In this document: positions 4,702-37,550 of the stretch, piece by piece
Layout of the letters: each line of letters opens with the position of its first letter
How positions within the stretch are numbered: position 1 is the stretch's first letter
From: Botryococcus braunii
Lineage: Eukaryota > Chlorophyta > Trebouxiophyceae
Assembly: GCA_002005505.1 (NCBI GenBank)
Contig: KV908352.1
Span: forward strand, 610,540 to 648,089
Reading direction: 5' to 3'
Length of the DNA: 37,550 nucleotides
Notes under the pieces: generated by a model
Told to the model about the DNA's origin: nothing
Seen by the model: the letters and a program-made list of their open reading frames with translations, nothing else
The model's database searches: none
Position numbers and translations under genes: made by a program

Positions 4702-5418
4702 TGTTATGTTTTAGAAGATTGACATGTGCCTTTCCCTCAGGAGAGTAATGGTGGCCAGACCAGCTCTGATCGACAGGCGGGAACAATTCTTAGAATGAGT
4801 AATAGGTGGCAGAACCTAGAAGTTTTGCCAGGACCAATCTCATTTAGATTATAGAGAATGAGGTAATCTGACACGGTTTGCTAGAAAGGATATATGTCGC
4901 CGGCTCGAAGGGACAAGGCACTTGATTGGGACTACAAAAGCACTTCGGGTGTTTGTCTCTTAACAGTTGCCAGTCAAGTCATCTCACACAGTCGCCACTG
5001 CTTGTTTCTCGACACACAACAAGAGTGCCGCCGGACTAAACACCCTCGTGCCGGGTCATACAGGTAAACTGATGTGCAACACTGAATGCACAGTAACAAT
5101 GGATTAGAAAGAGGTCTAGATAATGTGTATTAAGAGAGTGCTAATGTTTTAGCTCATCGGACACTGGTAATACAGACTATCGATAGTTACGTAGATGGAG
5201 TAGTTTGAATTACTGAGTGATGAGAGAGAACAGTAAGCATTGTGAAGGCACTTGATTGGGACTACAAAAGCACTTCGGGTGTTTGTCTCTTAACAGTTGC
5301 CAGTCAAGTCATCTCACACAGTCGCCACTGCTTGTTTCTCGACACACAACAAGAGTGCCGCCGGACTAAACACCCTCGTGCCGGGTCATACAGGATACGC
5401 CAAGCTCATAAGTTTACA
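4702..5418 (+). repeat. Element A 5' LTR (long form)
   Basis: Starts TGTTATG and ends TTTACA just before the PBS. Order: U3 4702-4914, repeat 1 4915-5063, spacer 5064-5244, repeat 2 5245-5393, U5 5394-5418. The two 149 bp repeats look identical by eye. Repeat 1 ends TACAG followed by GTAAACTG (5' splice-site-like). Repeat 2 ends TACAG followed by GATACGCC. The spacer ends TGTGA just before repeat 2, where the other families have TGTAA. Confidence 0.9.
4890..4897 (+). promoter_or_regulatory. TATA-like box of element A
   Basis: GATATATG lies about 25 bp before the first base of repeat 1 (4915), so repeat 1 probably begins at the transcription start. The same spacing occurs in B (TATATG at 7241, repeat at 7270) and C (TATTAA at 16955, repeat at 16986). 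Confidence 0.55.
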
Positions 5419-5880: not shown

Positions 5881-6899
<1,019 letters not shown>

Positions 6900-7009
6900 C
6901 AGTCGATGGGGTGTGGAATGCATCTGGGCTTCGAGCTCCAAGCTGAATAGTGTTTGCTCTGTATTGAAGGACTGCTTGATATACTGCTGTCACATTCATT
7001 TCAATACAG
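6900..7009 (+). other. E leader exon 1 (unspliced copy)
   Basis: These 110 bp recur at 14896-15005. Here they are followed by a donor, CAATACAG|GTAAGC. At the second copy they join directly to exon 2. The intron runs from 7010 to 14461 today. Without nested element B and its duplicated target site it is 123 bp (7010-7038 plus 14368-14461) and ends TTGCAG. Confidence 0.85.
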
Positions 7010-7240
7010 GTAAGCTTGCGATCGCTGGCAAGGGTAACTGTTATAATAGTGACAGAACATTTTGGTGCCTTTCCCTCAGAAGAGTAATAGTGGCCAGATC
7101 ATCGTCAATTACCAGAGAGAGAGCAGTTAGTAGAATGAGTAATCAGTGGCAGAACCCAGGAGTTCTGCCAGAACCAATCTAGACCAATTGCACGTTAATA
7201 AGAAAGGATTAGATAATCGGACACGGTTTGCTCGAAAGGC

Positions 7241-7246
7241 TATATG
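7241..7246 (+). promoter_or_regulatory. TATA-like box of element B
   Basis: TATATG, 29 bp upstream of repeat 1. It implies a transcription start at or near 7270. Confidence 0.55.
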
Positions 7247-7582
7247 CTCCTGGCTCGAAGGATTGAGGCACTTGATTGGGACATCACAAGCACTTCGGGT
7301 GTTTGCTACTTTACTGTTGCCAGTCAAGTCTCTTCACTCACAGACGACACTGCTTGTTTCTCTACGCACAACAAGAGTGTCGCCGGGCTTAACACCCTCG
7401 TGCCGGGACATGCAGGTAAACTGCTGTCAAGACATCATATGAACATGAACAATGGGTTAGGAAGGGTCTAGATAAGGTACAATAGAAAGGTGTCATTGCT
7501 TAGCTCATCGGACATTGGTAATGCAGACTATCAGTAACGTTGTTGATAGGATAGTTCGAGTTGCCGAGTGACGAGAGAGAGC

Positions 7583-7596
7583 AATAAACATTGTAA
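7583..7596 (+). promoter_or_regulatory. Probable poly(A) signal, AATAAA plus TGTAA
   Basis: AATAAACATTGTAA ends 1 nt before repeat 2. TGTAA is the usual poly(A) signal of chlorophyte green algae, and it occurs at the same place in C, D, E and G. In the 5' LTR it would lie inside the proposed intron; in the 3' LTR (14177-14190) it would direct 3' end formation. Confidence 0.55.
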
Positions 7597-7768
7597 GACT
7601 TGATTGGGACATCACAAGCACTTCGGGTGTTTGCTACTTTACTGTTGCCAGTCAAGTCTCTTCACTCACAGACGACACTGCTTGTTTCTCTACGCACAAC
7701 AAGAGTGTCGCCGGGCTTAACACCCTCGTGCCGGGACATGCAGGGAACATTACGCCCAGAATTGTACA

Positions 7769-7782
7769 GGTTATGGGCCCAC
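7769..7782 (+). promoter_or_regulatory. Primer-binding site, half initiator tRNA-Met type (B)
   Basis: GGTTATGGGCCCAC directly follows the terminal CA of the LTR. Confidence 0.85.
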
Positions 7783-7826
7783 CAAACTCTTGAGCTGGGC
7801 AACTGAAAGCATGTTCCGAGCATACG

Positions 7827-8351
7827 ATGGGACGAACGAAGCAGAGCGGAAGGATGTCGACCGGCGGTAAAAGACCTTTTATTCCCCCACCTCCTTCACC
7901 ACCGACATATGATAGCCTGAGGCGAGCTGGAGGAGATACGGGACCGAGAACACCAGAAGAACGAGCATTTATAGTGAAGGATTTTGTCAGCCGCGCGTAC
8001 GGACTGGGCAAACTCGAACAGCCTCTGTGGTTCAGACGACGATTCTCTGTTTACCCAGCATACAAAGTAACTGCGTGGGAGTGTTCATTCATCAACGCGG
8101 ACCCAGGCTTCGTCACGCGAGCATTATTTGAACGACATCTACAACAGCTCGGAGGACCCAACAGACCCGAGTACTGGGAAGAAAGGGCAGCCTACACAGC
8201 AGTGGAGTGTGCTCTCGCTACTCTTGACGAGGACTTCCTACTTTCCCTTCTGGGCAGCAGAAAAGGATTCAGCCCAGAGGAGTGGTGCACGGACACAGAC
8301 GACGGAGACGACGACAGGGACGCGCAGCTGTCAGAACCTAACGCAGACTGA
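7827..8351 (+). CDS. Element B ORF1, unknown 174-aa protein
   Basis: ATG start 44 bp after the PBS; TGA at 8349-8351, 11 nt before the gag ATG and in a different frame. A basic N-terminus (MGRTKQSGRMSTGGKRPF) is followed by a proline-rich stretch (residues 18-27). A conserved core of about 100 residues (PRTPEERAFIVKDF, SVYPAYKVTAWECSFIN) comes next, and the C-terminal tail is acidic (DTDDGDDDRD). The core matches the ORF1 fragment of A, and C has a related N-terminus, so it belongs to this copia group. I recognise no known domain. A role as RNA-binding or accessory protein would be a guess. Confidence 0.8.
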   Translation: MGRTKQSGRMSTGGKRPFIPPPPSPPTYDSLRRAGGDTGPRTPEERAFIVKDFVSRAYGLGKLEQPLWFRRRFSVYPAYKVTAWECSFINADPGFVTRALFERHLQQLGGPNRPEYWEERAAYTAVECALATLDEDFLLSLLGSRKGFSPEEWCTDTDDGDDDRDAQLSEPNAD

Positions 8352-8362
8352 GGGACATCAGC

Positions 8363-11300
8363 ATGGCGAAAAAGAGATCCAAATCAAGGGAGCCATCCGA
8401 GGAGGAGCCCACAACAGAGGAAGCATCTACATCGTCTCCCACACGACAGCCGTGTACACCCAGCACATCAAAGGGCGAGGGAGATGTACTTCCCAAGGTC
8501 ATTGCCACCCAAGTCAAAGTGCATATTAAACTGGATCGTCATGGCACAAATTTTGTGGTATGGGACAATGCCTTCACTGCTGCCAATAGTGCCAAGGGTT
8601 CCTTTCCTGCCATTCAGTCAGCCATGCCTGGAACTATCCATAATGCAGCTGCAATGCTTCTGTTGTATGAGTCAGTTCCAGAGGAATGGTTAGGGGAAGT
8701 GTCAAGTAAGCCGTCAGCATATGATGCATATCTGTTTATTTGCAAGAAATTTGTTGGTGGTTACAACACTCAAGCCAACGCAGACTGGCTGAAGGAAATG
8801 TCAAAAGGGATGAGGCGTGGAGAAACAATCTCTCAGTATGTGTCTAGAATGATAAATCTCAAAAGCTGCTTGAAACGCAATGGACATGACCTCCTGGATG
8901 GTCATGTGGCCTCCCAGATCGTACAGGGACTGCCAGCAGCAGCTAATCCTCCTGGTCTACTGCCCACTGCAGTAGCTTACCCCTTGGATGAACTGGCAGC
9001 TCTCATTTCCACCACTGCAGAAGCTTCTGGCTACAACGATGATGGAGAACAGCCTGCCATGGTGATGCAAGCAATGCCTGCTCAACGAGAGACTGCTCCT
9101 GCCCCTTCCACTGGCGGGGCCAATCCCTCCAAACAGCCAGCAGACACAGAATCAAGGGGAGAAGTGAGAGGCACATGCAACTACTGCCACAGGAAAGGCC
9201 ATTTCTGGAGAGACTGCCGCAAACGCCAAAGGGATGCAGAGACACAACGCAATGTGGTGGCAGCAGTACAGCAACTTGCTGCCATGTGGCCCCAAGGTCA
9301 GTTTCCTGGTGCGCCTCAACCGCCTCCAAGCGTGCAGCATGCATTCCCAGGCACTGGAGCGTTCCCACTGCTGCACCCTCCTCCAGGACCACCTTCTCCT
9401 CCCTCAGGAGGTATGCCATACGTGGTGTCTTATAATGTGCTGGATGGCAGTAAACACCAGCAGTCCAAACAGTCGTGGCTTGTGGACAGTGGAGCGTCTG
9501 TACATCTTGTGAACAACTTGTCCCTGCTGCATGCCCCTACAGTACATGACCACCCTATTCCACTGCTGCTTGCTACATCTGATGCCACTGGGGGTATTGT
9601 TGCTACTGGGTCAGTGTGCCTCCTGTCCTCTCAGCGTATTCCAGTGTGGCTGCATCATGTCCAGTGTGTTCCCTCAGCTACCACCAATATTCTCTCAGTA
9701 TCTGCTGCTCTGCGTGATGGAATCCGGTTCAGTACAGATAGACTGGGAGCATTCACTGCTGTCTCAGGACCGAGTGGTTGGCAGATGCCTGTGAAACCAG
9801 AGAATGGTCTCTATTATATTCACAACTGCCTCCCAGTAGCACCAGTGAAGGTCCCTTATTCAGTGACAGCTGCCTTGAAGAAGAAATGCTCCAAAGGTCA
9901 AAGTCATGACTGTGCCAAGCGTTTCCTGTGGCACAGCAGATTGGGACACCCAGGAGACCCCTGGATGAAACGCCTGAGCAGTGAGCAACTGGTTACTGGC
10001 TTAGACACCTCGATGTCCCCCTGTGAAAATTGTCCTAAGTACTGTGAAGCGTGCATTGAGGGGAAGCATGCACGTCCCCCATTTGGTGAAAGCTCTAGAC
10101 CTGCTGAAAAACCCCTTGACAGAATCCACATTGACACTGTGGGTCCCATATCACCAGCAGCCATTACTGGGGAACGTTTTTGGGTAACTGTAACTGATGA
10201 GGCATCTGGGTGGAAGGCAGTGCTGCCAGTGAAGTCAAAAGATGTAATTGCAGCTGTTGTCAGAGACCTAATTCTGTATTGGCAAACTGAGAAGGAAACT
10301 ACAGTGAAGTGCATCCGCAGTGACAGAGGGACAGAGTTCTTAAATGCCAAGTTCAAGGAATTTTGTGCATCCCAGGGCACTAAGCTGGAGACATCTGCCC
10401 CATATACCCCTCAGCAGAATGGAGTTGCTGAGAGAGCCAACAGAACCCTCAAGGAGCGCACCAGGACCCTCCTCAATTTTGCTGCAGCAAGCCCTGTTAT
10501 GTGGAAGGAAGCCCTGGAGACAGCCTGCACCCTCCTAAATATGGGACCCAGCACAGGCAGGCCCCTATCTCCCTGCGAAATGTTCATGGGATATAAGCCT
10601 GATGTATCCCTGCTGCGTACATGGGGATGCCTTGCATTTGTGCACGTTCCTGACCAGCAGAGGGGGACCTTTGCACCAAAGGCTGTGGCTGGGATGTTCA
10701 CTGGTTACTCCCCAGTGTCAAAGGCATATCGTATCTATATGGGAGGGGGGATCTGGAGAGAGAGCAGAGATGTTCAATTTGTGGAACACATTCGGGGAGC
10801 TACTAGGGTGGGAATGGCTGTTCTCCCTGACCAGCCTCAGCAGTTTTCATACCCTGAAGACTTGTCAGGGCAATTGCACCGCAGCAATCCAGTGGTGCCA
10901 TTGTCACAGCGCAGTATGCAGAACCAGACTGTCAGCAGCCCATGCTCCAGCAGTAGACCTGACAGCGCCTTCCCAGTACCCTCTGACCAGGCTGCAACTG
11001 AGCCTGATAGTCAGGGGAAGCCTTCCCAGGAGGGGGGCATTCTCATTGTGTCTCCCGAAGCAAGCACGGGAGAGCAGCAGCCGGACCTGGATCAGTCCGG
11101 GGCTCTGGACGCCATCCAACGACTGGCGCGAGGAAGTGCAGACAGCGGACAACATCATCAGACTTTAGAGCGAATACAGCAGTCACTGCGTAACCCGCAT
11201 CCGGCTACTACCACCCTGCCTCCGGACGGACTGTCGCGGGCTCAACGCTATGAGCAACGAACTGCGGCTCGAGATATCCTGCTGGCACAGGATAAGGGAG

Positions 11301-12121
11301 AGAGCTGTGAGCGAGAGGGGAGGACTGAAGGTGACACAGAGTCACAGGGACCAGGGGAAGCGCAGGAATTGGGGCAGGACACCGAGAGACCTGCTTTACT
11401 TGTAAGAGATGAGAGGGGGGCAGTCTCTGATCAGACTGCAGATGGTCCAAGTGAGCTGAGATGTATGGGTGGGACCTGCTCAGTGCCTGAGAGTAATGTT
11501 AGCGATGAGAACTCTATCAGTGATGCCCAAGGACAATGTGGTGCCAGCCACGCAAGCATGGGCCATGCATGGGAGTGTGCTGCTGGGCCTGCGCCCCAGC
11601 GCTCATGTCTAGTGGGCAGCAGACAGAGAGAGAGAGAGACATGGACACAGCAGCAAAATAGACCAAGTGCTCATGCAATGCAGAGTGGTCCACGTGTCTG
11701 TGAGAGTCCTGACGGGACTGCAAACCGTCAGCCATGTGAGAGTGTGTCTGAGGAGGTGAATCGGAAGCCAAGACAGTGTGAGAACTCCCCCAATTACAAG
11801 AGCTTTCCGAGAGGTACCTGTGTTTGGGAGGATGATGTGAGAGAGGATGGCAGCAAGCTTGAGAGGGCAAGCTGTGAGTCTAAGAGAGAGAAAGAGCAGA
11901 GGGAGAGATCTGGATCTTTACCAACAGTTCCCACGTGCTGTGCGGCGACATTCAGCGAAAGAGTAGTGGAGAGAGTGAGAGTAAGAGTAAGCAAGAGCAG
12001 GGGAAGCATACTGGGGTGCGTTTTGGGAAGATCAGTGTGCCCTCAAGTCTCAAGGAGGCACAGCAGTCCCCACAGTGGGAGTACTGGAAGGCTGCAATGC
12101 AGGAGGAGCAAAACTCCTTAG
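8363..12121 (+). CDS. Element B Gag-protease-integrase polyprotein
   Basis: 1252 codons from ATG 8363. Order: copia Gag capsid (residues about 50-220), zinc knuckle CNYCHRKGHFWRDC near residue 272 (CX2CX4HX4C), aspartic protease with WLVDSGASVHLVNN near 372, GAG-pre-integrase/HHCC region (LWHSRLGHPG, then CENC and CEAC), and integrase core. The integrase acidic triad is visible in HIDTVGP, RSDRGTEFLN and NGVAERANRTL. The last part is a long linker rich in Ser, Glu and Arg that includes GA-dinucleotide tracts. The RT lies in another frame, which overlaps the last 200 nt or so. So RT-RNase H needs frameshifting or other recoding, or the copy is mutated here. Confidence 0.9.
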   Translation: MAKKRSKSREPSEEEPTTEEASTSSPTRQPCTPSTSKGEGDVLPKVIATQVKVHIKLDRHGTNFVVWDNAFTAANSAKGSFPAIQSAMPGTIHNAAAMLLLYESVPEEWLGEVSSKPSAYDAYLFICKKFVGGYNTQANADWLKEMSKGMRRGETISQYVSRMINLKSCLKRNGHDLLDGHVASQIVQGLPAAANPPGLLPTAVAYPLDELAALISTTAEASGYNDDGEQPAMVMQAMPAQRETAPAPSTGGANPSKQPADTESRGEVRGTCNYCHRKGHFWRDCRKRQRDAETQRNVVAAVQQLAAMWPQGQFPGAPQPPPSVQHAFPGTGAFPLLHPPPGPPSPPSGGMPYVVSYNVLDGSKHQQSKQSWLVDSGASVHLVNNLSLLHAPTVHDHPIPLLLATSDATGGIVATGSVCLLSSQRIPVWLHHVQCVPSATTNILSVSAALRDGIRFSTDRLGAFTAVSGPSGWQMPVKPENGLYYIHNCLPVAPVKVPYSVTAALKKKCSKGQSHDCAKRFLWHSRLGHPGDPWMKRLSSEQLVTGLDTSMSPCENCPKYCEACIEGKHARPPFGESSRPAEKPLDRIHIDTVGPISPAAITGERFWVTVTDEASGWKAVLPVKSKDVIAAVVRDLILYWQTEKETTVKCIRSDRGTEFLNAKFKEFCASQGTKLETSAPYTPQQNGVAERANRTLKERTRTLLNFAAASPVMWKEALETACTLLNMGPSTGRPLSPCEMFMGYKPDVSLLRTWGCLAFVHVPDQQRGTFAPKAVAGMFTGYSPVSKAYRIYMGGGIWRESRDVQFVEHIRGATRVGMAVLPDQPQQFSYPEDLSGQLHRSNPVVPLSQRSMQNQTVSSPCSSSRPDSAFPVPSDQAATEPDSQGKPSQEGGILIVSPEASTGEQQPDLDQSGALDAIQRLARGSADSGQHHQTLERIQQSLRNPHPATTTLPPDGLSRAQRYEQRTAARDILLAQDKGESCEREGRTEGDTESQGPGEAQELGQDTERPALLVRDERGAVSDQTADGPSELRCMGGTCSVPESNVSDENSISDAQGQCGASHASMGHAWECAAGPAPQRSCLVGSRQRERETWTQQQNRPSAHAMQSGPRVCESPDGTANRQPCESVSEEVNRKPRQCENSPNYKSFPRGTCVWEDDVREDGSKLERASCESKREKEQRERSGSLPTVPTCCAATFSERVVERVRVRVSKSRGSILGCVLGRSVCPQVSRRHSSPHSGSTGRLQCRRSKTP

Positions 12122-13614
12122 ATGCCCATGAGGTGATGGAGTTTGTTCCTAGACCTCGTGGGCACAAAGTTATCCCAGTTCACTGGATTTTTTCAGTGAA
12201 AATGGATGCACACGGCAATGTGCTTAGATTCAAGGCCAGGCTGGTGGCTCAAGGGTGTAGGCAAATTCCAGGAGTGGATGTGATGGAGGTATTTGCTCCC
12301 ACCAGCAGTTATGGGTCTAGAAGAGCTTTACTGTCAGTGGCTGCACAGGAGGGTCTTGAAATTCACCAGGTGGATGTCACGACTGCTTTCTTAAATGGTG
12401 AATTAGAGGAGGAGGTCTATGTCACACAACCTCCTGGGTTTGAGAATGGGGATGGGAACACTGTGTGTCGCTTGAAGAAGGCATTGTATGGCCTGAAGCA
12501 AGCTCCAAGGGCATGGCATAAGACCCTTAATGAGAAGCTACATACCATGGGGTATGAGGTGTGCAAGAGTGATGCTGGGGTCTATGTGAAATGTTCTGTG
12601 GATGGAGGGAAATCCTTTGTGCTGATTTATGTTGATGATCTATTGATAGTTTCAAAGGGCATGAGTGAGATTGAGAGGGTGAAAGGGTTGCTGAAGCAGG
12701 AGTTCACCATCCATGATCTTGGAGAGGTGAAAGATTTCTTGGGCTGTCAAGTAATGAGAGATAGAGAGAAAGGGTTGATTTCTTTGAGTTGCATCCCAAA
12801 GATTGATGCCCTAGTTGAGAAATTTGGGCTGGATCTGGAGTCTGTGGGGCCTGACACCCCTATGACTAAGGATTTTGTGGCCACACAGCGACCTATGTCT
12901 AAGGACAACAGTGCCAGCATTGGAGCTGGGAGTCCCTTACCTCCAGGTCACAGATATTGTGAACTGGTTGGGTCACTGTTGTACATTGCCAACACCACAA
13001 GGCCTGATGTTTCCCAGGCTGTGGGAGTGCTTTCCAGGTATAGGATTACTCCCACCACTGCTCATTGGAATGAAGCCATCAGAGTGTTGAAATATCTGAT
13101 GGCTACCAGGGATCTTGTGTTAGTACTTGGAGGGAAGGACACAGAGCTGGAGGGCTTTGTGGATGCAGATTATGGTGGTGATCAGGATCACAGGTTCTCC
13201 ACTACTGGTTACGTAATTCGTGTGTTTGGAGGAGCAGTAGTTTGGGGAAGCAAAAAGCAGTCTGCAGTGGCCACATCCACTGTAGAGGCTGAGTTTATGG
13301 CGGCAAGTGCAGCTGTCAAAGAGGCAAATTGGATGAAGGGATTCCTGGAAGAAATTGGGATTTCTCCGTGGATTGTGAAGATCCACTGTGATAATCAGGG
13401 ATGTATCAATCATCTCAGAAATCCAGTGTTCTCTAAGCATACCAAGCACATCGCGATCAGCTTCCATTTTGCACGGGAAGCTATTGCATTGGGTCAGGTG
13501 GATGTAAAATACGTTCCTTCTGCAAGGAATGTAGCAGATATATTCACAAAGCCTTTGACAAGGCAGGTGTTTCAGGGACATCGTGATGCTCTGGGGTTGG
13601 CCAAGTTTTTGTGA
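11884..13614 (+). CDS. Element B reverse transcriptase-RNase H
   Basis: The frame is open from 11884 (after TAA 11881-11883) to TGA 13612-13614. Recognisable copia RT starts near 12020 (FGKISVPSSLKEAQQSPQW). It contains FKARLVAQGCRQIPGVDV, the DVTTAFLNGELEEEVYV block and the catalytic YVDDLL at about 12629-12646. RNase H follows with acidic residues in VDADYGGD, EAEFMAAS, CDNQGC and NVADIFTK. It ends a few bases before the polypurine tract. No ATG is well placed for independent start. The frame differs from that of integrase. Confidence 0.9.
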   Translation, partial: ERERAEGEIWIFTNSSHVLCGDIQRKSSGESESKSKQEQGKHTGVRFGKISVPSSLKEAQQSPQWEYWKAAMQEEQNSLDAHEVMEFVPRPRGHKVIPVHWIFSVKMDAHGNVLRFKARLVAQGCRQIPGVDVMEVFAPTSSYGSRRALLSVAAQEGLEIHQVDVTTAFLNGELEEEVYVTQPPGFENGDGNTVCRLKKALYGLKQAPRAWHKTLNEKLHTMGYEVCKSDAGVYVKCSVDGGKSFVLIYVDDLLIVSKGMSEIERVKGLLKQEFTIHDLGEVKDFLGCQVMRDREKGLISLSCIPKIDALVEKFGLDLESVGPDTPMTKDFVATQRPMSKDNSASIGAGSPLPPGHRYCELVGSLLYIANTTRPDVSQAVGVLSRYRITPTTAHWNEAIRVLKYLMATRDLVLVLGGKDTELEGFVDADYGGDQDHRFSTTGYVIRVFGGAVVWGSKKQSAVATSTVEAEFMAASAAVKEANWMKGFLEEIGISPWIVKIHCDNQGCINHLRNPVFSKHTKHIAISFHFAREAIALGQVDVKYVPSARNVADIFTKPLTRQVFQGHRDALGLAKFL

Positions 13615-13616
13615 GG

Positions 13617-13632
13617 AAAAGGCAAGGGGAAG
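13617..13632 (+). promoter_or_regulatory. Polypurine tract of element B
   Basis: AAAAGGCAAGGGGAAG lies immediately before the 3' LTR. The same tract precedes the 3' LTRs of A (23901-23915) and C (22811-22825). D carries a related one on the minus strand (29728-29744). Confidence 0.85.
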
Positions 13633-14362
13633 TGTTATAATAGTGACAGAACATTTTGGTGCCTTTCCCTCAGAAGAGTAATAGTGGCCAGATCATCGTC
13701 AATTACCAGAGAGAGAGCAGTTAGTAGAATGAGTAATCAGTGGCAGAACCCAGGAGTTCTGCCAGAACCAATCTAGACCAATTGCACGTTAATAAGAAAG
13801 GATTAGATAATCGGACACGGTTTGCTCGAAAGGCTATATGCTCCTGGCTCGAAGGATTGAGGCACTTGATTGGGACATCACAAGCACTTCGGGTGTTTGC
13901 TACTTTACTGTTGCCAGTCAAGTCTCTTCACTCACAGACGACACTGCTTGTTTCTCTACGCACAACAAGAGTGTCGCCGGGCTTAACACCCTCGTGCCGG
14001 GACATGCAGGTAAACTGCTGTCAAGACATCATATGAACATGAACAATGGGTTAGGAAGGGTCTAGATAAGGTACAATAGAAAGGTGTAATTGCTTAGCTC
14101 ATCGGACATTGGTAATGCAGACTATCAGTAACGTTGTTGATAGGATAGTTCGAGTTGCCGAGTGACGAGAGAGAGCAATAAACATTGTAAGACTTGATTG
14201 GGACATCACAAGCACTTCGGGTGTTTGCTACTTTACTGTTGCCAGTCAAGTCTCTTCACTCACAGACGACACTGCTTGTTTCTCTACGCACAACAAGAGT
14301 GTCGCCGGGCTTAACACCCTCGTGCCGGGACATGCAGGGAACATTACGCCCAGAATTGTACA
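13633..14362 (+). repeat. Element B 3' LTR (long form)
   Basis: 730 bp copy of the 5' LTR with one visible difference. Repeat 1 13864-14009, repeat 2 14192-14337. It ends TTGTACA and is followed by the duplication GTAAC. Confidence 0.95.
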
Positions 14363-14461
14363 GTAACGGTCGCAGTCGTGTGGCTGCGATCGTAGGCGTT
14401 AAGCACATGCATACTGATGTTTCTGCTGATAATGAAACATTACATGTGTCTTGTGTTGCAG

Positions 14462-14540
14462 GAGCTGCATTGCTTGTATGTTACTGTTGTGCGAACAGTA
14501 AGGCTATTTGTGTGTGACGAGTTGCACACTGGTTATAGCG
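14462..14540 (+). other. E leader exon 2 (unspliced copy)
   Basis: Preceded by GTGTTGCAG and followed by GTGAGTACAG. The spliced copy is 15006-15078, which lacks 6 nt (TAAGGC near 14499). This is the one length difference between the two leader copies. Confidence 0.85.
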
Positions 14541-14626
14541 GTGAGTACAGATACGTATAACAAGCTTGCTCCTGCTGGTTAAATAACTGTTTTGTTTTGA
14601 TCTCTGATGATCCACATATTGTGCAG
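14541..14626 (+). other. E leader intron (86 bp)
   Basis: Begins GTGAGTAC and ends ATTGTGCAG. It is absent from the second leader copy, where exon 2 and exon 3 join exactly at 15078/15079. Confidence 0.9.
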
Positions 14627-14698
14627 ATTGGTTGGGAGTAGCCATTAAACTCCTGGGACTGCTGAAGGGCCAAGGGTGTCCTGATCGGAGAGCAGTCG
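14627..14698 (+). other. E leader exon 3 (unspliced copy)
   Basis: 72 bp, copied at 15079-15150 with one visible substitution (GAAGGG versus GAAAGG). Confidence 0.85.
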
Positions 14699-14802
14699 GT
14701 ACGTACACATATGTGGATAGGATGCGTGTGTGTTTTATATGGTTTAGATATATTTTATGGACACTGATGAACCCACAAGTAAATCATAACGCTCGGGTGC
14801 AG
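14699..14802 (+). other. E leader intron (104 bp)
   Basis: Begins GTACGTAC and ends CTCGGGTGCAG. It is precisely missing at 15150/15151 in the second leader copy. Confidence 0.9.
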
Positions 14803-14869
14803 GCAGATATAGACGGCAGTGCGAGCACTGGTCTATATAGACATTGAGAGTACTTGGTGGTGTTCACAG
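14803..14869 (+). other. E leader exon 4 (unspliced copy)
   Basis: 67 bp ending GTTCACAG and followed by a donor-like GTAAATATACG. The copy at 15151-15217 is followed instead by GAAGTGATTC, the U5-like sequence. A spacer of only 26 bp, ending TGTAAC, separates exon 4 from the second leader copy. Confidence 0.85.
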
Positions 14870-14895
14870 GTAAATATACGTAAACCATTTGTAAC

Positions 14896-15217
14896 CAGTC
14901 GATGGGGTGTGGAATGCATCTGGGCTTCGAGCTCCAAGCTGAATAGTGTTTGCTCTGTATTGAAGGACTGCTTGATATACTGCTGTCACATTCATTTCAA
15001 TACAGGAGCTGCATTGCTTGTATGTTACTGTTGTGCGAACAGTATTTGTGTGTGACGAGTTGCACACTGGTTATAGCGATTGGTTGGGAGTAGCCATTAA
15101 ACTCCTGGGACTGCTGAAAGGCCAAGGGTGTCCTGATCGGAGAGCAGTCGGCAGATATAGACGGCAGTGCGAGCACTGGTCTATATAGACATTGAGAGTA
15201 CTTGGTGGTGTTCACAG
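14896..15217 (+). repeat. Spliced (intronless) copy of the E leader
   Basis: Exons 1, 2, 3 and 4 follow each other without any of the three introns present in the upstream copy. Each join sits exactly at a GT-AG boundary. This can only come from a spliced RNA that was reverse transcribed. It starts 1 nt after TGTAA (14890-14894) and ends CAG just before the U5-like segment. It therefore occupies the place of repeat 2 in the LTRs of A, B, C, D and G. Confidence 0.9.
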
Positions 15218-15284
15218 GAAGTGATTCTCTGACGGCATACGTACTGCTTACAGTTACGGCATCCTCCAACTAATACACAACAAA

Positions 15285-15298
15285 GGTGCTGGGCCCAC
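15285..15298 (+). promoter_or_regulatory. Degenerate PBS of element E
   Basis: GGTGCTGGGCCCAC differs from the PBS of A, B, C and G at two positions, both in the part that pairs with the anticodon loop. Its position after the leader and before ORF1 is the expected one. Confidence 0.55.
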
Positions 15299-15329
15299 AA
15301 CTTGCTGCATGCCAGAGTAGGGAGTCATT

Positions 15330-16289
15330 GTGATCGAAGATACACTGGAACCTGAAGAGCAACGGACGCCGAGACATTTCCCAACAACGAGAGGAAGAGG
15401 ACTGCGACCTGCATTACGTCAACAGCATCCAAGAAGACCAGAACACTCAGAGTATCCCATTCCTTTTGTCAGGACTCACTTTGAAGTTCCTGACTATTTT
15501 GGAGACCCGGGTCTGTATATTCATATTGAGAGGCCTGGTGTTCCAAAGGGTCAATTTCAAAGGCCAATTGTGCATCACCAAGACATTGTGCTGAACAATC
15601 TTCCTGATCCTGTTGAACGAGCAAACTACATATTTGTTAAGACTTGTGAAAGTGAAGAAGGGTCCGTTCTGTGTGGAGGAATTATATCAACGGCATTCTT
15701 GGCTGGTCTGACACAGCCACGAGAGGAGCCCATTTTGGTCAAGTGGGAGGAATTGATTGTGTTCAGTGATCCCCTTGCTGATAGCCTGGTGCATGAGGTA
15801 GCAGAGCTATACGGGAAGAGCCTTCCAAAAGAAGACTGGGAGGTGCACTATTTTCTGAAAGTGTGGAACCGTTTGCAGGAGTTATTTAAGCTAACTGCAG
15901 ACGGGCCACGGGAAGGTTTTCCTTCGTTCTTTCTCGACAGAGCTATTGTTGAGGGAAGAGAGGGAACAGGACAGGTACTCAGGTGGTACAGAGAATACCA
16001 CGTGTATATCGAGCTGGTACAGTTCCAGTTCCGTTTACACCAGGGGCAGAGTAAGGCAGTATTTGACCGACTGCCATCATGGAGGGAGGTGGAGGAGCTG
16101 GGACTCAATCCGTTGCGGCTCCATCCGGATTACTTCCAGACCTACGAGGGGATCTCACGGGGGGGGCTGGAACCAGTGATGGGGTTACAGCGACTGACAT
16201 GGGAAGAGATTCAGGAGTTGGAACAGCAGTGGCTAGGGGATCTGAACCGGCCAGTACATCTGGCCGGGAAGATCCGACTAGTCCAGTGA
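15330..16289 (+). CDS. Element E ORF1, unknown protein
   Basis: An open frame of about 320 codons from roughly 15321 to the TGA at 16287-16289. There is no ATG near the start: the frame opens after TAG 15318-15320 and the first in-frame start-like codon is GTG 15330. Either an upstream start joins by splicing or the start has been lost. The protein is soluble-looking and charged, with Trp/Glu-rich helices in the C-terminal half (VKWEELIVF, WEVHYFLKVWNRLQELFKL). I do not recognise a domain. It occupies the same place as ORF1 of B, between PBS and gag, but I see no clear sequence match. Its 3' end overlaps the gag frame. Confidence 0.6.
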   Translation: MIEDTLEPEEQRTPRHFPTTRGRGLRPALRQQHPRRPEHSEYPIPFVRTHFEVPDYFGDPGLYIHIERPGVPKGQFQRPIVHHQDIVLNNLPDPVERANYIFVKTCESEEGSVLCGGIISTAFLAGLTQPREEPILVKWEELIVFSDPLADSLVHEVAELYGKSLPKEDWEVHYFLKVWNRLQELFKLTADGPREGFPSFFLDRAIVEGREGTGQVLRWYREYHVYIELVQFQFRLHQGQSKAVFDRLPSWREVEELGLNPLRLHPDYFQTYEGISRGGLEPVMGLQRLTWEEIQELEQQWLGDLNRPVHLAGKIRLVQ

Positions 16290-16779
16290 ACTCCAGTCTG
16301 CAGGTCACCACCTCCTTAGATAGACTGGGTTTTTCGTTGGACATCTGGAAACAAAATGTGTTCCATTGTGCCGTGAGCAGGAATGTGCTGGAATGCCTAA
16401 AAACGTCCATGCCGGGGACTAAAGGGGATGCAGTGGCACTGCATTTGTTGCTGCAAAAGGTTCCAGAAGTGTGGGCTCAGAAGGTGGCATTCGCTGAATC
16501 TGCAGCAGTGGCATTTAATTGGATTATGAGCCAGTTCCAAGGGGGAGCAAACTTGGAAATCAATGACCAATGGCTGGAGCTGTTGGACAGTGAAATGATG
16601 GGGAGTGAGGGCACGTTGGAAGAATATGTGGCGAGGAAAGAGTTGCTGGCAAAAAGACTGAACGATAACAACATGCCAGTAACGCAAACAAAACTCAAGA
16701 AGTCAATCCTGAAGTGCCTTCCGTGGCAGTTTGATGCTCATAAACCAAGTTTATCTTCTTCCACTGCTACATGCAATAT
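16079..16779 (+). pseudogene. Element E gag, 5' part cut by element C
   Basis: Frame from ATG 16079, overlapping the end of ORF1 by about 210 nt in another frame. From about residue 75 it follows the copia Gag fold seen in B and C: LLLQKVPEVWAQKV aligns with the FILQSVPSMWHDEV region of C, and FQGGANLEINDQWLELLDS with CTGGKDREINEKWIKGLKQ. The frame runs into the LTR of C at 16780, so the capsid domain is incomplete, and no zinc knuckle, protease or polymerase follows. Confidence 0.75.
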
Positions 16780-17149
16780 TGTTGAGTTGTGAACATACAT
16801 TATAGAATGCCTTGTGCTTTAGGTGATCTTCAAATGTACATTATTAGGATACGGGTCCACTATCCACATAAGGTACCTCAAGACACGTTCGGATGAGGTC
16901 TATTTCGAACATAAGGTACAATCTGATTTAGATTACGCGTTAGCGTGAAAGGACTATTAAAGCTGCGATCATCGCATAGTCGAGCAACTGGTTTGGAAAG
17001 ATACTGGGCACATAAGGTTGCCAGTCTTGTTCATGCAGTTGCATGTGTCTAAAAGAGCAGACAGTCGTCAAGGACTGTAGCTGGAGAGGCACGAACTTAC
17101 GACCTGTCTGCTTGCTTACAGGATACGCCACTGCCCATAACCTTTTACA
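16780..17149 (+). repeat. Element C 5' LTR (short form)
   Basis: Starts TGTTGAGTTG and ends TTTTACA. It has a single leader repeat (16986-17121) joined directly to the U5 GATACGCC. Spacer and second repeat are absent, and with them the TGTAA motif. TATTAA at 16955 lies 31 bp before the repeat. U5 contains GCCCATAACC, which is complementary to the PBS and could pair with it. Confidence 0.9.
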
Positions 17150-22825: not shown

Positions 22826-23528
22826 TGTTGAGTTGTGAACATACATTATAGAATGCCTTGTGCTTTAGGTGATCTTCAAATGTACATTATTAGGATACGG
22901 GTCCACTATCCACATAAGGTACCTCAAGACACGTTCGGATGAGGTCTATTTCGAACATAAGGTACAATCTGATTTAGATTACGCGTTAGCGTGAAAGGAC
23001 TATTAAAGCTGCGATCACCGCATAGTCGAGCAACTGGTTTGGAAAGATACTGGGCACATAAGGATGCCAGTCTTGTTCATGCAGTTGCATGTGTCTAAAA
23101 GAGCAGACAGTCGTCAAGGACTGTAGCTGGAGAGGCACGAACTTACGACCTGTCTGCTTGCTTACAGGTGCGGTGACGCAGGATGTGTATTGGTAATGTG
23201 TTCATGTTTGATTGCTTGTTTGTAAGTGAACCATCTTAGTGGACAATCAAGTCTCCCAAACAGCTAAGGGACGGAGTCTTGATTGAGTATAGGAAGGTAC
23301 TTGCTTTCAGCCGTCAGGAGCTTATCCGTGTGTAGATGCTCATTGACAGATCAACATGTAACGGAACTGGTTTGGAAAGATACTGGGCACATAAGGATGC
23401 CAGTCTTGTTCATGCAGTTGCATGTGTCTAAAAGAGCAGACAGTCGTCAAGGACTGTAGCTGGAGAGGCACGAACTTACGACCTGTCTGCTTGCTTACAG
23501 GATACGCCACTGCCCATAACCATTTACA
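22826..23528 (+). repeat. Element C 3' LTR (long form)
   Basis: Repeat 1 23032-23167, spacer 23168-23364, repeat 2 23365-23500, U5 23501-23528. The two 136 bp repeats look identical. Repeat 1 ends GCTTGCTTACAG|GTGCGGTG and repeat 2 ends GCTTACAG|GATACGCC. The pyrimidine-rich stretch before CAG would serve as a 3' splice site. TGTAA at 23357-23361 lies 3 nt before repeat 2. Confidence 0.9.
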
Positions 23529-23915: not shown

Positions 23916-24641
23916 TGTTATATTTTAGAAGATTGACATGTGCCTTTCCCTCAGGAGAGTAATGGTGGCCAGACCAGCTCTGATCGACAGGCGGGAACAA
24001 TTCTTAGAATGAGTAATAGGTGGCAGAACCTAGAAGTTTTGCCAGGACCAATCTAGACCGATTTCATTTAGATTAGAGAGAATGAGGTAATCTGACACTG
24101 TTTGCTAGAAAGGATATATGTCGCCGGCTCGAAGGGACAAGGCACTTGATTGGGACTACAAAAGCACTTCGGGTGTTTGTCTCTTAACAGTTGCCAGTCA
24201 AGTCATCTCACACAGTCGCCACTGCTTGTTTCTCGACACACAACAAGAGTGCCGCCGGACTAAACACCCTCGTGCCGGGTCATACAGGTAAACTGATGTT
24301 GCAACACTGAATGCACAGTAACAATGGATTAGAAAGAGGTCTAGATAATGTGTATTAAGAGAGTGCTAATGTTTTAGCTCATCGGACACTGGTAATACAG
24401 ACTATCGATAGTTACGTAGATGGAGTAGTTTGAATTACTGTGATGAGAGAGAACAGTAAGCATTGTGACGGCACTTGATTGGGACTACAAAAGCACTTCG
24501 GGTGTTTGTCTCTTAACAGTTGCCAGTCAAGTCATCTCACACAGTCGCCACTGCTTGTTTCTCGACACACAACAAGAGTGCCGCCGGACTAAACACCCTC
24601 GTGCCGGGTCATACAGGATACGCCAAGCTCATAAGTTTACA
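23916..24641 (+). repeat. Element A 3' LTR (long form)
   Basis: Starts TGTTATATT and ends TTTACA, followed by the duplication CTTCC. Repeat 1 24139-24287 and repeat 2 24470-24616 are separated by a GTAAACTG-starting spacer. A few substitutions and short indels relative to the 5' LTR lie in U3 and the spacer; the repeats themselves look unchanged. Confidence 0.9.
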
Positions 24642-24812: not shown

Positions 24813-25500
24813 ATTTGAGTTCTGAACATTATTATTGCATGCGTTGTGCTTTAAGTGATCTTCATGTGTGCAATATTAGGATATGGGTCCAGTGAGAACA
24901 TAAGGTACCTTGAGACACGGTAGATTGTGAACGCTTTCGAACATAAGGTACAATCTGATCTACATTACACGTTTGTTGGGTGAATTCTTAAGGCTGCCTC
25001 ACTGGTGTGAATGCCAACTGGTTGTGAAAGATGCTGGGCATTTCCAGATGCTAGTCTTGTCCAATAGTTGTGCATGATACTCAGCAGACAGTCGTATGGA
25101 CTGCAGCTAGAGTAACTTCGTCGACTGACGACCTGTCTGCCATGTACAGGTGCGGTGCGGCAGTGTGTGTTGTATCATTGTTGCTATTGTGAGAGTGAAC
25201 AAGATTAGTGTACCCTGTAGTCACTTAAACAGACAAGGGACAGTGACGGCAGGGAGTATAGGCATGTACTTGAGCGTAGCCGCCTAGAGCCTTACCTAGT
25301 AATTGCTTGATCGGTGCTTGAGTGCAATACAATGATGTAACGGAGCTGGTTGTGAAAGATGCTGGGCATTTCCAGATGCTAGTCTTGTCCAACAGTTGTG
25401 CATGATACTCAGCAGACGGACGTACGGACTGCAGCTAGAGTAACTTCGTCTACTGACGACCCTCCCGTTTACAGGATACGCCAATGCCCATAACCTTTCA
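24813..25500 (+). repeat. Element G 5' LTR (long form)
   Basis: Repeat 1 25018-25149 ends CATGTACAG|GTGCGGTG. Repeat 2 25346-25474 ends GTTTACAG|GATACGCC. The repeats differ at several positions, unlike those of A, B and C, so this copy is older or mutated. TGTAA 25336-25340 lies 5 nt before repeat 2. U5 carries GCCCATAACC facing the PBS. Confidence 0.8.
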
Positions 25501-29008: not shown

Positions 29009-29727
29009 TCTTACATTTAGGTTATGGGTGTGAAGACCTGCAAGCACGAGCGGAGCGAGTGATCAGTTGCTTTAGTTGGCTGGGCCGTTCTTATGGCGGC
29101 CTTGCGCCAAACGAAAACACACTTGCTGTCTTCACACATGTATCAGTCATTGATAGTGCTAGGCAAGTGGTTACATTTAGAGTCTTCTTATGCTAACGCA
29201 ATTGAGCCTCCAGAACATAAATCCTTGCATGCGCTAGCAAATATCTTGCATGATACTTGTCTCCCTGATCTTCTCTCATAGGTATGGCACCCGCAACCGA
29301 TGAAGATACAGATGTTCAAAAATTTAGTTATAGCAAGCAAGTAACTTGTCCATGCATGTCTTAACATGTCTACCTAGGCCAATCGGCCTTACCTGCAAGC
29401 ACGAGCGGAGCGAGTGATCAATTGCTTTAGTTGGCTGGGCCGTTCTTATGGCGGCCTTGCGCCAGACGAAAACACACTTGCTGTCTTCACACATGTATCA
29501 GTCATTGATAGTGCTAGGCAAGTGACATTCGACTCCACTGCTTGCTTCTCAAATACCCGCGTTGCAAGATCACGCGTTGATCTGGCAACCACGTGCAAAT
29601 AACGTACGACACTATTTATAACATGACCTTGTGTTTAACCATTGTTTATCAATCCTTTTACGAGTTCATGTTTGTTCATGTCTGTTCAAGAGGAAGGCAG
29701 TCTCACTATATGTCACAAAATGTAACA
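29009..29727 (-). repeat. Element D 3' LTR (long form)
   Basis: Minus strand: U3 from 29727, repeat 1 29524-29393, spacer 29392-29170, repeat 2 29169-29038, U5 29037-29009. The 132 bp repeats differ at two positions. Repeat 1 ends GCTCGTGCTTGCAG|GTAAGG, a strong donor. Repeat 2 ends GCTTGCAG|GTCTTCAC. The spacer ends TGTAAC. The LTR ends TAAGA rather than CA. Confidence 0.9.

Positions 29728-36251: not shown

Positions 36252-37550
<1,299 letters not shown>

Follow-up and report, generated by a model that had tools for sequence, protein, structure and literature searches.

An intron-bearing leader and its intron-free copy within the long terminal repeats of copia-like retrotransposons of Botryococcus braunii: a copy likely re-made at each transposition

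How can a retrotransposon keep introns in its own long terminal repeat (LTR), when introns are expected to be lost as spliced RNA is reverse transcribed? The question is raised by a 37,550-nucleotide (nt) stretch of the genome of Botryococcus braunii (GenBank assembly GCA_002005505.1, contig KV908352.1, positions 610,540 to 648,089), referred to as the window. Here, the LTR of a copia-like element, E, contains its leader twice, first as four exons separated by three introns (copy A), and then as the same four exons without introns (copy B). We propose that copy A is the intron-bearing master, and that copy B is disposable and likely re-made at every transposition as complementary DNA (cDNA) of the spliced copy A transcript; we place the probability of this reading at roughly 0.8.

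When joined, the four window exons amount to 328 nt and match 14896-15217 over their full length apart from one 6-nt gap in exon 2 and a single G/A substitution in exon 3, and all three copy A exon junctions are GT-AG boundaries. A first-pass annotation of this DNA had described the same four exons as recurring intron-free, in the same order and with exact GT-AG removal, and had counted one 6-nt and one 1-nt difference; the alignment bears out the former and reproduces the latter. Its coordinates hold for exons 2–4, but the first base really common to A and B is 6901/14897 rather than 6900/14896. It also placed exon 1 and exon 2 on either side of a GT-AG intron, which is correct, although the length of that intron in the window is not native. 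Exon 1 lies far from exon 2 because a complete, unrelated copia element (C, 7039-14362) has inserted in intron 1, and the window E LTR therefore comprises 6456-7038 plus 14368-15282. Its features are given below, with counts that refer to the 39 further E LTRs described thereafter.

6456-7038, plus strand: 5’ part of the E LTR, with U3 (6456-6900), copy A exon 1 and the start of intron 1; 99.0% to positions 1-583 of the L012 LTR (blastn)
6901-7009, plus strand: copy A exon 1; 6901 is the predicted transcription start and the first base common to B; donor GTAAGC in 39/39 LTRs
7039-14362, plus strand: copia element C within E intron 1, with LTRs at 7039-7768 and 13633-14362 and Pfam matches
14368-14461, plus strand: remainder of copy A intron 1; 29 + 94 = 123 nt, and 123 nt in 39/39 LTRs
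14462-14540, plus strand: copy A exon 2, from alignment to copy B
14541-14626, plus strand: intron 2, 86 nt, GT-AG; GT..AG in 39/39
14627-14698, plus strand: copy A exon 3, from alignment to copy B
14699-14802, plus strand: intron 3, 104 nt, GT-AG; GT..AG in 39/39
14803-14869, plus strand: copy A exon 4, from alignment to copy B
14870-14896, plus strand: spacer, 26 nt in 39/39 LTRs, plus junction base 14896
14870 and 14890-14894, plus strand: spacer signals, a predicted donor GTAAAT and a predicted polyadenylation (poly(A)) signal TGTAA, respectively
14897-15217, plus strand: copy B, intron-free exons 1–4, ending TTCACAG; from alignment and 39 LTRs
14870-15217, plus strand: predicted fourth intron, whose acceptor is the end of copy B; interval ends GT..AG in 38/39
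15218-15282, plus strand: U5 and LTR end (...ACACAACA); boundaries from 5’/3’ LTR pairs
15283-16779, plus strand: start of the E internal region (primer-site region and copia-like gag), interrupted at 16780 by another element

A search of the same genome (176 Mb, 989 contigs) with 14462-15300 yielded 197 candidates, of which the 40 best-scored are the window and 39 further LTRs, all 39 of which were fetched. Having been chosen as the best matches to a two-copy query, they give no measure of how often one copy is missing. All 39 contain U3, copy A exons 1–4 with three introns, the 26-nt spacer, copy B and U5 in the same order, and the A/B arrangement is thus not due to chance. The introns measure 123, 86 and 102-106 nt, with GT..AG ends in 38/39, 39/39 and 39/39 LTRs, respectively, and in 38/39 for the proposed intron 4. 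The 6-nt gap and the substitution of the window are found in 0/39. The spacer (14870-14896 in the window) is almost invariant, and it also holds a TATA-like word, TAAATATA, beside the donor and TGTAA. One LTR, L014, carries an insertion within U3.

Nine 5’/3’ LTR pairs were compared, eight of which have LTRs of 1503-1505 base pairs (bp), a visible 5-bp target duplication, and ends TGTTGT..ACAACA or ..ATAACA; the ninth pair, L009/L026, comes from a tandem array on contig C41. L020/L041 likewise show a target duplication, and L014/L033 are paired by contig, orientation and internal-side flank only, the outer end of L014 not being resolved. In all nine pairs, and in L020/L041 and L014/L033, both LTRs exhibit the unspliced-then-spliced order, as anticipated in the first-pass annotation, and in none of the 39 fetched LTRs do the two segments lie apart or outside the LTR; they are adjacent and inside it. 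The C41 locus (C41:396842-420536; L009, L011 and L026) is an apparent tandem array of E with the structure LTR-internal-LTR-internal-LTR.

Introns that are exactly missing usually mark a retrocopy, and 14896-15217 might stem from an unrelated host gene whose retrocopy inserted next to its source, an outcome that the first-pass annotation had named as fatal to its own interpretation. However, the segment is present in both LTRs of pairs, within the LTR termini and the 5-bp target duplications, and the 39 LTRs contradict this explanation, which we regard as extremely improbable.

The reading that we prefer is a replication cycle with RNA start, splice and poly(A) sites predicted from sequence. 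First, transcription would start at the first A of copy A exon 1 in the 5’ LTR (6901). Second, introns 1–3 would be spliced and the exon 4 donor (14870) joined to an acceptor at the last bases of B (15217), such that the spacer plus B would leave as a fourth intron and take the TGTAA poly(A) signal along; its removal would, we propose, also spare the RNA from being polyadenylated too early, within the 5’ LTR. The spliced 5’ end of the RNA would then be leader plus U5, exactly B plus U5. Third, the RNA would continue to the 3’ LTR, where the A introns would be kept, and would end ~10–15 nt inside B, guided by TGTAA. Fourth, reverse transcriptase would copy U5 and the spliced leader to the cap to give strong-stop cDNA, whose final bases (R, equal to the first bases of B) would anneal to the RNA 3’ end and be extended through the spacer, the intron-bearing A and U3. 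Through this transfer, the RNA 3’ end would contribute U3, unspliced A and spacer to the new LTR, and the 5’ end the spliced leader and U5; most of B would never serve as a template. Two variations of this scheme are disfavored: an RNA start at B, because B-from-B and A-from-A descent would build up fixed differences, of which none are seen, and retention of the spacer plus B in the RNA, because LTRs would then grow by one unit per cycle, and a grown LTR is seen once.

Sequence variation among E copies provides the main evidence for renewal of B. The 39 LTRs were grouped to 27 elements, with the junction column excluded from the A/B counts and the first part of the L014 U3 (the insertion) excluded from the alignment. 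Fourteen exon variants occur in at least two of the 27 elements, and 10 of these are mirrored in A and B: e1.95, e1.99, e4.48 and e4.59 without exception, and e1.70, e1.96, e1.102, e2.17, e2.63 and e2.74 with the sole exception of L018/L038, where B alone carries them. Among variants restricted to one element, 51 are in A only, 35 in B only and 8 in both copies, the last including e1.36, which L012/L022 has in its two LTRs, and a deletion of two bases shared by A and B of L042. In the ten paired elements, variants present in one LTR are confined to one copy in 22/22 cases and occur in both copies in 0/22, and those present in both LTRs occur in both copies in 11/19 cases, with seven of the other eight belonging to L018/L038. 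Within one E LTR, A and B differ at 2.77/328 columns, compared to 5.88 for A copies of different elements, and no fixed A/B difference is seen apart from the junction base.

This pattern says that A and B were apparently equalized before LTR duplication and have diverged after insertion, which points to reverse transcription rather than chromosomal conversion. Mirrored variants, together with one-LTR variants that never occur in both copies, make it likely that B is re-copied from the A exons during transposition. They support the origin that the first-pass annotation had suggested for B, in which strong-stop cDNA of the spliced 5’ RNA end is combined with an unspliced copy of the RNA 3’ end; that B appears to be re-made at each transposition, and not once, goes beyond it.

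Scans of the genome for exact patterns, with no mismatch allowed, bear on DNA-level gene conversion as an alternative. The TGTAA spacer followed by spliced exon 1-exon 2 is present at 70 places, the window included, the TGTAA spacer followed by exon 1 and intron 1 at none, and U3 followed by spliced exon 1-exon 2 at a single place, on contig C365. The E LTR at this place (L077/L078, C365:65326-65450 and around) has a single spliced leader between U3 and U5; it is a 5’ LTR, and no 3’ LTR was found within ~27 kb downstream. At C163:72652-73018, the only such place genome-wide, two consecutive spacer-plus-B units have a start-to-start distance of 354 nt, or 26 + 328 (judged from positions only). 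Both forms are expected under renewal if strong-stop cDNA pairs with A, or if the spacer plus B stays unspliced, but they are no proof of the model because A-B recombination would yield the same products.

If A and B were converted within integrated LTRs, the intron-free copy could have arisen once with no continuing reverse transcription. A and B lie side by side as direct repeats and are almost identical within LTRs, and the single-copy C365 LTR, the two-unit C163 LTR and a single-copy LTR of family F at 16780-17149 in the window could be recombination products. Conversion should, however, move introns, and the scans find no B copy with intron 1 and only one A copy without it; furthermore, the confinement of one-LTR mutations to one copy in all 22 cases indicates that post-insertion A/B conversion is rare, if it occurs at all. 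We therefore consider this alternative quite improbable.

The first-pass annotation viewed E as an LTR that keeps its introns by carrying both forms. Our data support this view, but the arrangement is not confined to E, as what appears to be a one-intron version is present in other copia families of the window. In these LTRs the leader occurs twice, over about 116-150 aligned nt and with the copies 328-355 nt apart. The first copy ends CAG/GTAAAC, CAG/GTGCGG or CAG/GTAAGG, and the second ends CAG beside U5. The LTRs are as follows:

7270-7743, plus strand: family C left LTR; A exon 7270-7415, CAG/GTAAAC, TGTAA 7592-7596, B 7598-7743, then U5; A=B over 147 bases
13864-14337, plus strand: family C right LTR; A exon 13864-14009, B 14192-14337
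4915-5393, plus strand: family D LTR; A 4915-5063 (CAG/GTAAAC), B 5245-5393 (CAG/GATACG); 150/150 identical; no TGTAA before B
24139-24616, plus strand: second family D LTR; A 24139-24287, B 24470-24616; 148/148 identical
23032-23500, plus strand: family F LTR; A 23032-23167 (CAG/GTGCGG), TGTAA, B 23365-23500; 137/137 identical
25018-25474, plus strand: family G LTR (older); A 25018-25149, TGTAA, B 25346-25474; 95.7% over 116 bases
29038-29523, minus strand: family H LTR; A 29393-29523 (CAG/GTAAGG), TGTAA 29171-29175, B 29038-29168; 21 LTRs compared

Families C and H were extended to the genome, and A and B of families D, F and G were compared within the window. The 22 family C LTRs consist of two from the window and 20 of 38 other strong matches; A equals B in 20 of them, the other two have one mismatch (of 147), and subfamily variants at positions 18 and 64 are found in both copies of the LTRs carrying them. 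For family H, the window LTR was combined with 20 other places from a list of 42. The A-B difference is 1.71/130 columns within an LTR versus 11.25 between LTRs, the nearest or tied-nearest A is that of the same LTR for 17/21 B copies, and 17/25 recurrent variants are exactly mirrored. Thus, A and B appear likewise to evolve together in families C and H. Two leader copies are present in 39/39 E, 22/22 C and 21/21 H LTRs, all selected by similarity to a two-copy query, and single-copy LTRs also exist, one in E (on C365) and one in F (in the window).

These comparisons allow a third explanation to be weighed, in which B arose in a single retro-duplication and has been passed on next to A ever since, with no renewal. 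The layout does look old, being present in 39/39 fetched E LTRs and in other copia families, and A and B distances are highly correlated by Mantel test (E 0.535, with 9/9999 permutations as high; H 0.971, with 0/9999). However, joint inheritance would produce this correlation too, and it alone does not separate the two explanations. A single duplication predicts fixed A/B differences that predate the subfamilies, and none are found except the junction base, with E lacking them, C at 0-1/147 and H at the low within-LTR value given above; mirrored variants contradict it as well. It is accordingly a very improbable account. We consider it probable that a whole group of copia retrotransposons replicates through a self-renewing split LTR, in which introns persist indefinitely by means of an intron-bearing master leader in U3 and a throw-away cDNA copy. 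This cDNA leader would be spliced out at one RNA end, would fall past the poly(A) site at the opposite end, and would be rewritten from the master at every transposition.

The sequences at the start of B are consistent with these predictions. The base before the first A of B is G in 32/39 E, 14/22 C and 11/21 H LTRs, whereas the base before the first shared base of A is C in 38/39 E (T in one), 21/22 C and 21/21 H LTRs. The junction base is C in the other 7/39 E LTRs, and the C at 14896 in the window is not typical, given the G in the other 32. A copied cap G would explain the G before B. TGTAA is located just before B in 39/39 E, 22/22 C and 21/21 H LTRs, as well as in F and G in the window; it starts 6-10 nt before B in five of the six window families (E, C, F, G and H), with a chance expectation of ~0.005 per 9-nt stretch. 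One study gives UGUAA as the signal for polyadenylation in late-branching green algae, and places near-upstream elements usually 15-20 nt before the cleavage site (PMC1868727). This distance and the position of TGTAA put the predicted RNA end just inside B, with an R of roughly 10–15 nt. Renewal by strong-stop cDNA could also proceed with other details, the RNA 3’ end lying beyond B (R being all of B) or the cDNA pairing with the whole of B. The sequence data would be the same whether the RNA ended 10 or 300 nt into B, and family D is without TGTAA, but the placement of TGTAA in the other five families would put cleavage just inside B, and we find this variant unlikely. Inspection of 13 Lhc regions gave no clear result on TGTAA use by host genes; the host genome has 35 matches to the chlorophyll-binding family. 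Two host Lhc exons were also compared with PDB, where the top chains are the multi-domain LHCI proteins of 9vfj, followed by single-domain Lhca-type chains that are presumably mostly green-algal entries. The chlorophyll-binding matches and these exons make a green-algal host likely.

Several observations weigh against renewal of B at each transposition as we describe it. First, the model requires introns to be removed at the RNA 5’ end and kept at the 3’ end, and offers no explanation for this. Second, not all recurrent variants are mirrored: e1.44, e1.78, e2.41 and e2.80 in E are not, and 8/25 in family H are imperfectly so. Independent mutation is the likely, if unproven, cause; e2.41 is common to the B copies of L018/L038 and L047. 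Third, Fisher tests on the paired elements give 2.4e-5 (ten pairs), 0.020 (eight pairs with target duplications) and 4.1e-4 (the latter without L018/L038), values that overstate the independent evidence because the mirrored variants are mostly subfamily markers recounted across pairs, such as e4.48 in five pairs and e4.59 in two. Fourth, both LTRs of L018/L038 (C174:230878-240596) carry seven exon 1-2 variants in B, all of which are found in the B of L047 and six in that of L046, while main-type sequence makes up copy A, U3 and U5. This element is likely a mosaic of two RNAs, with the exon 1-2 part of B coming from a different, co-copied parent RNA, which in itself speaks for renewal; but because U5 is main-type and the foreign block covers only part of the strong-stop region, the model has to add a second template switch, somewhere from U5 to exon 2. 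Template switching is a normal part of reverse transcription. Fifth, the junction base in family H is T or A in 5/21 LTRs. Sixth, family D has TTGTGA in place of TGTAA before B. Lastly, a comparison of TATA-like words is of no help, and for E it favors B over A: the best word lies before B (7/8, background 0.028) rather than before A (6/8, background 0.174).

E is classed as copia-like on the basis of its LTR termini, its target duplications and a weak match to gag. It has TG..CA LTRs, 5-bp target duplications and a purine tract before the 3’ LTR; its gag matches Retrotran_gag_2 at 7.8e-05 and 22.6 bits, below the curated cut-off of 27, and a 268-amino-acid open reading frame (ORF) at the 3’ end of the internal region (L030) resembles copia RNase H as judged by eye. 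Element C has LTRs of 730 bp each and a target duplication, GTAAC, at 7034-7038 and 14363-14367. Its Pfam matches RVT_2, SH3_retrovirus and gag_pre-integrs exceed the cut-off, and rve falls just under it. Among the 120 matches listed of 7411 in a protein search with its reverse transcriptase region, most are unnamed, and others include Centaurea (37%), Volvox africanus (43%) and one labeled Chrzof1 (44%), which we take to be Chromochloris. The sequence following the LTR, a candidate primer-binding site, is GGTTATGGGCCCA in C, D, F and G, and AAGGTGCTGGGCCCACAAC in E (15283-15303 in the window); the former resembles an initiator-tRNA half.

The elements lie within one another. Between 4702 and 24641 of the window, C is inserted in E intron 1, F follows E gag, and E and F are seemingly in D. 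The right flank of F is D-like pol, which suggests recombination or deletion. The F LTR at 16780-17149 has a single leader with no intron or TGTAA, and is 98.8-99.4% identical to the two-copy F LTR (22826-23528); by eye, the outer flanks of the two show no target duplication, and they may be different insertions. The 40 best-scored of 1464 family F candidates are all ~100% identical over 703-705 bases, and this family may be young and active. At 1794-2634 and 36700-37480, long simple repeats of the window give rise to long spurious ORFs in several frames.

With its TG..CA LTRs, 5-bp duplications, purine tract, weak copia gag match and RNase H-like ORF, E is like Ty1/copia LTR retrotransposons. 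In ordinary U3-R-U5 LTRs, the RNA starts at the U3/R border, and we know of none with a pair of intron-bearing and intron-free leaders. The E LTR departs from this form in that its leader is not present once per LTR but in two copies (39/39). Split-intron retroviral vectors are a man-made use of the fact that opposite ends of the RNA supply U3 (3’) and R-U5 (5’); to our knowledge, none contains a self-renewing leader pair. The foamy virus LTR has a donor between the RNA start and the poly(A) signal, as predicted for E, and splicing factors can silence the 5’ site (PMC3694450). The abstract of that report describes no unspliced/spliced leader pair, whereas E is predicted to splice out the signal plus a whole leader copy, which reverse transcription would later replace. 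Penelope-like elements are reported to retain introns through retrotransposition, like E, but for these the authors favor an antisense template, or leave room for an unspliced one (PMC3846280), while for E we predict a template spliced at only one of its ends. The fixed LTR ends with 5-bp duplications and the weak copia gag match appear to speak against a Penelope-like element for E. Among open papers, assessed by title and the opening of the abstract, no LTR with paired unspliced and spliced leaders was found; one gene-therapy paper matched through a vector named LTR1, and subscription papers and preprints were not searched.

If the model is true, E keeps three introns because one part of its LTR derives from the spliced end of the RNA and the other from the unspliced end, and a single layout would solve two problems: introns are retained, and the 5’ LTR poly(A) signal is avoided. 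B would preserve a record of how the parent RNA was capped and spliced at its 5’ end, and the start sites and splice junctions of past transpositions would therefore be readable from genomic DNA alone. The layout can be sought wherever LTRs were annotated with internal repeats. Since a one-intron version occurs in other copia families of this genome, it may be a general strategy in the lineage, and if the whole group does replicate in this manner, splicing would be obligatory for both reverse transcription and poly(A)-site choice.

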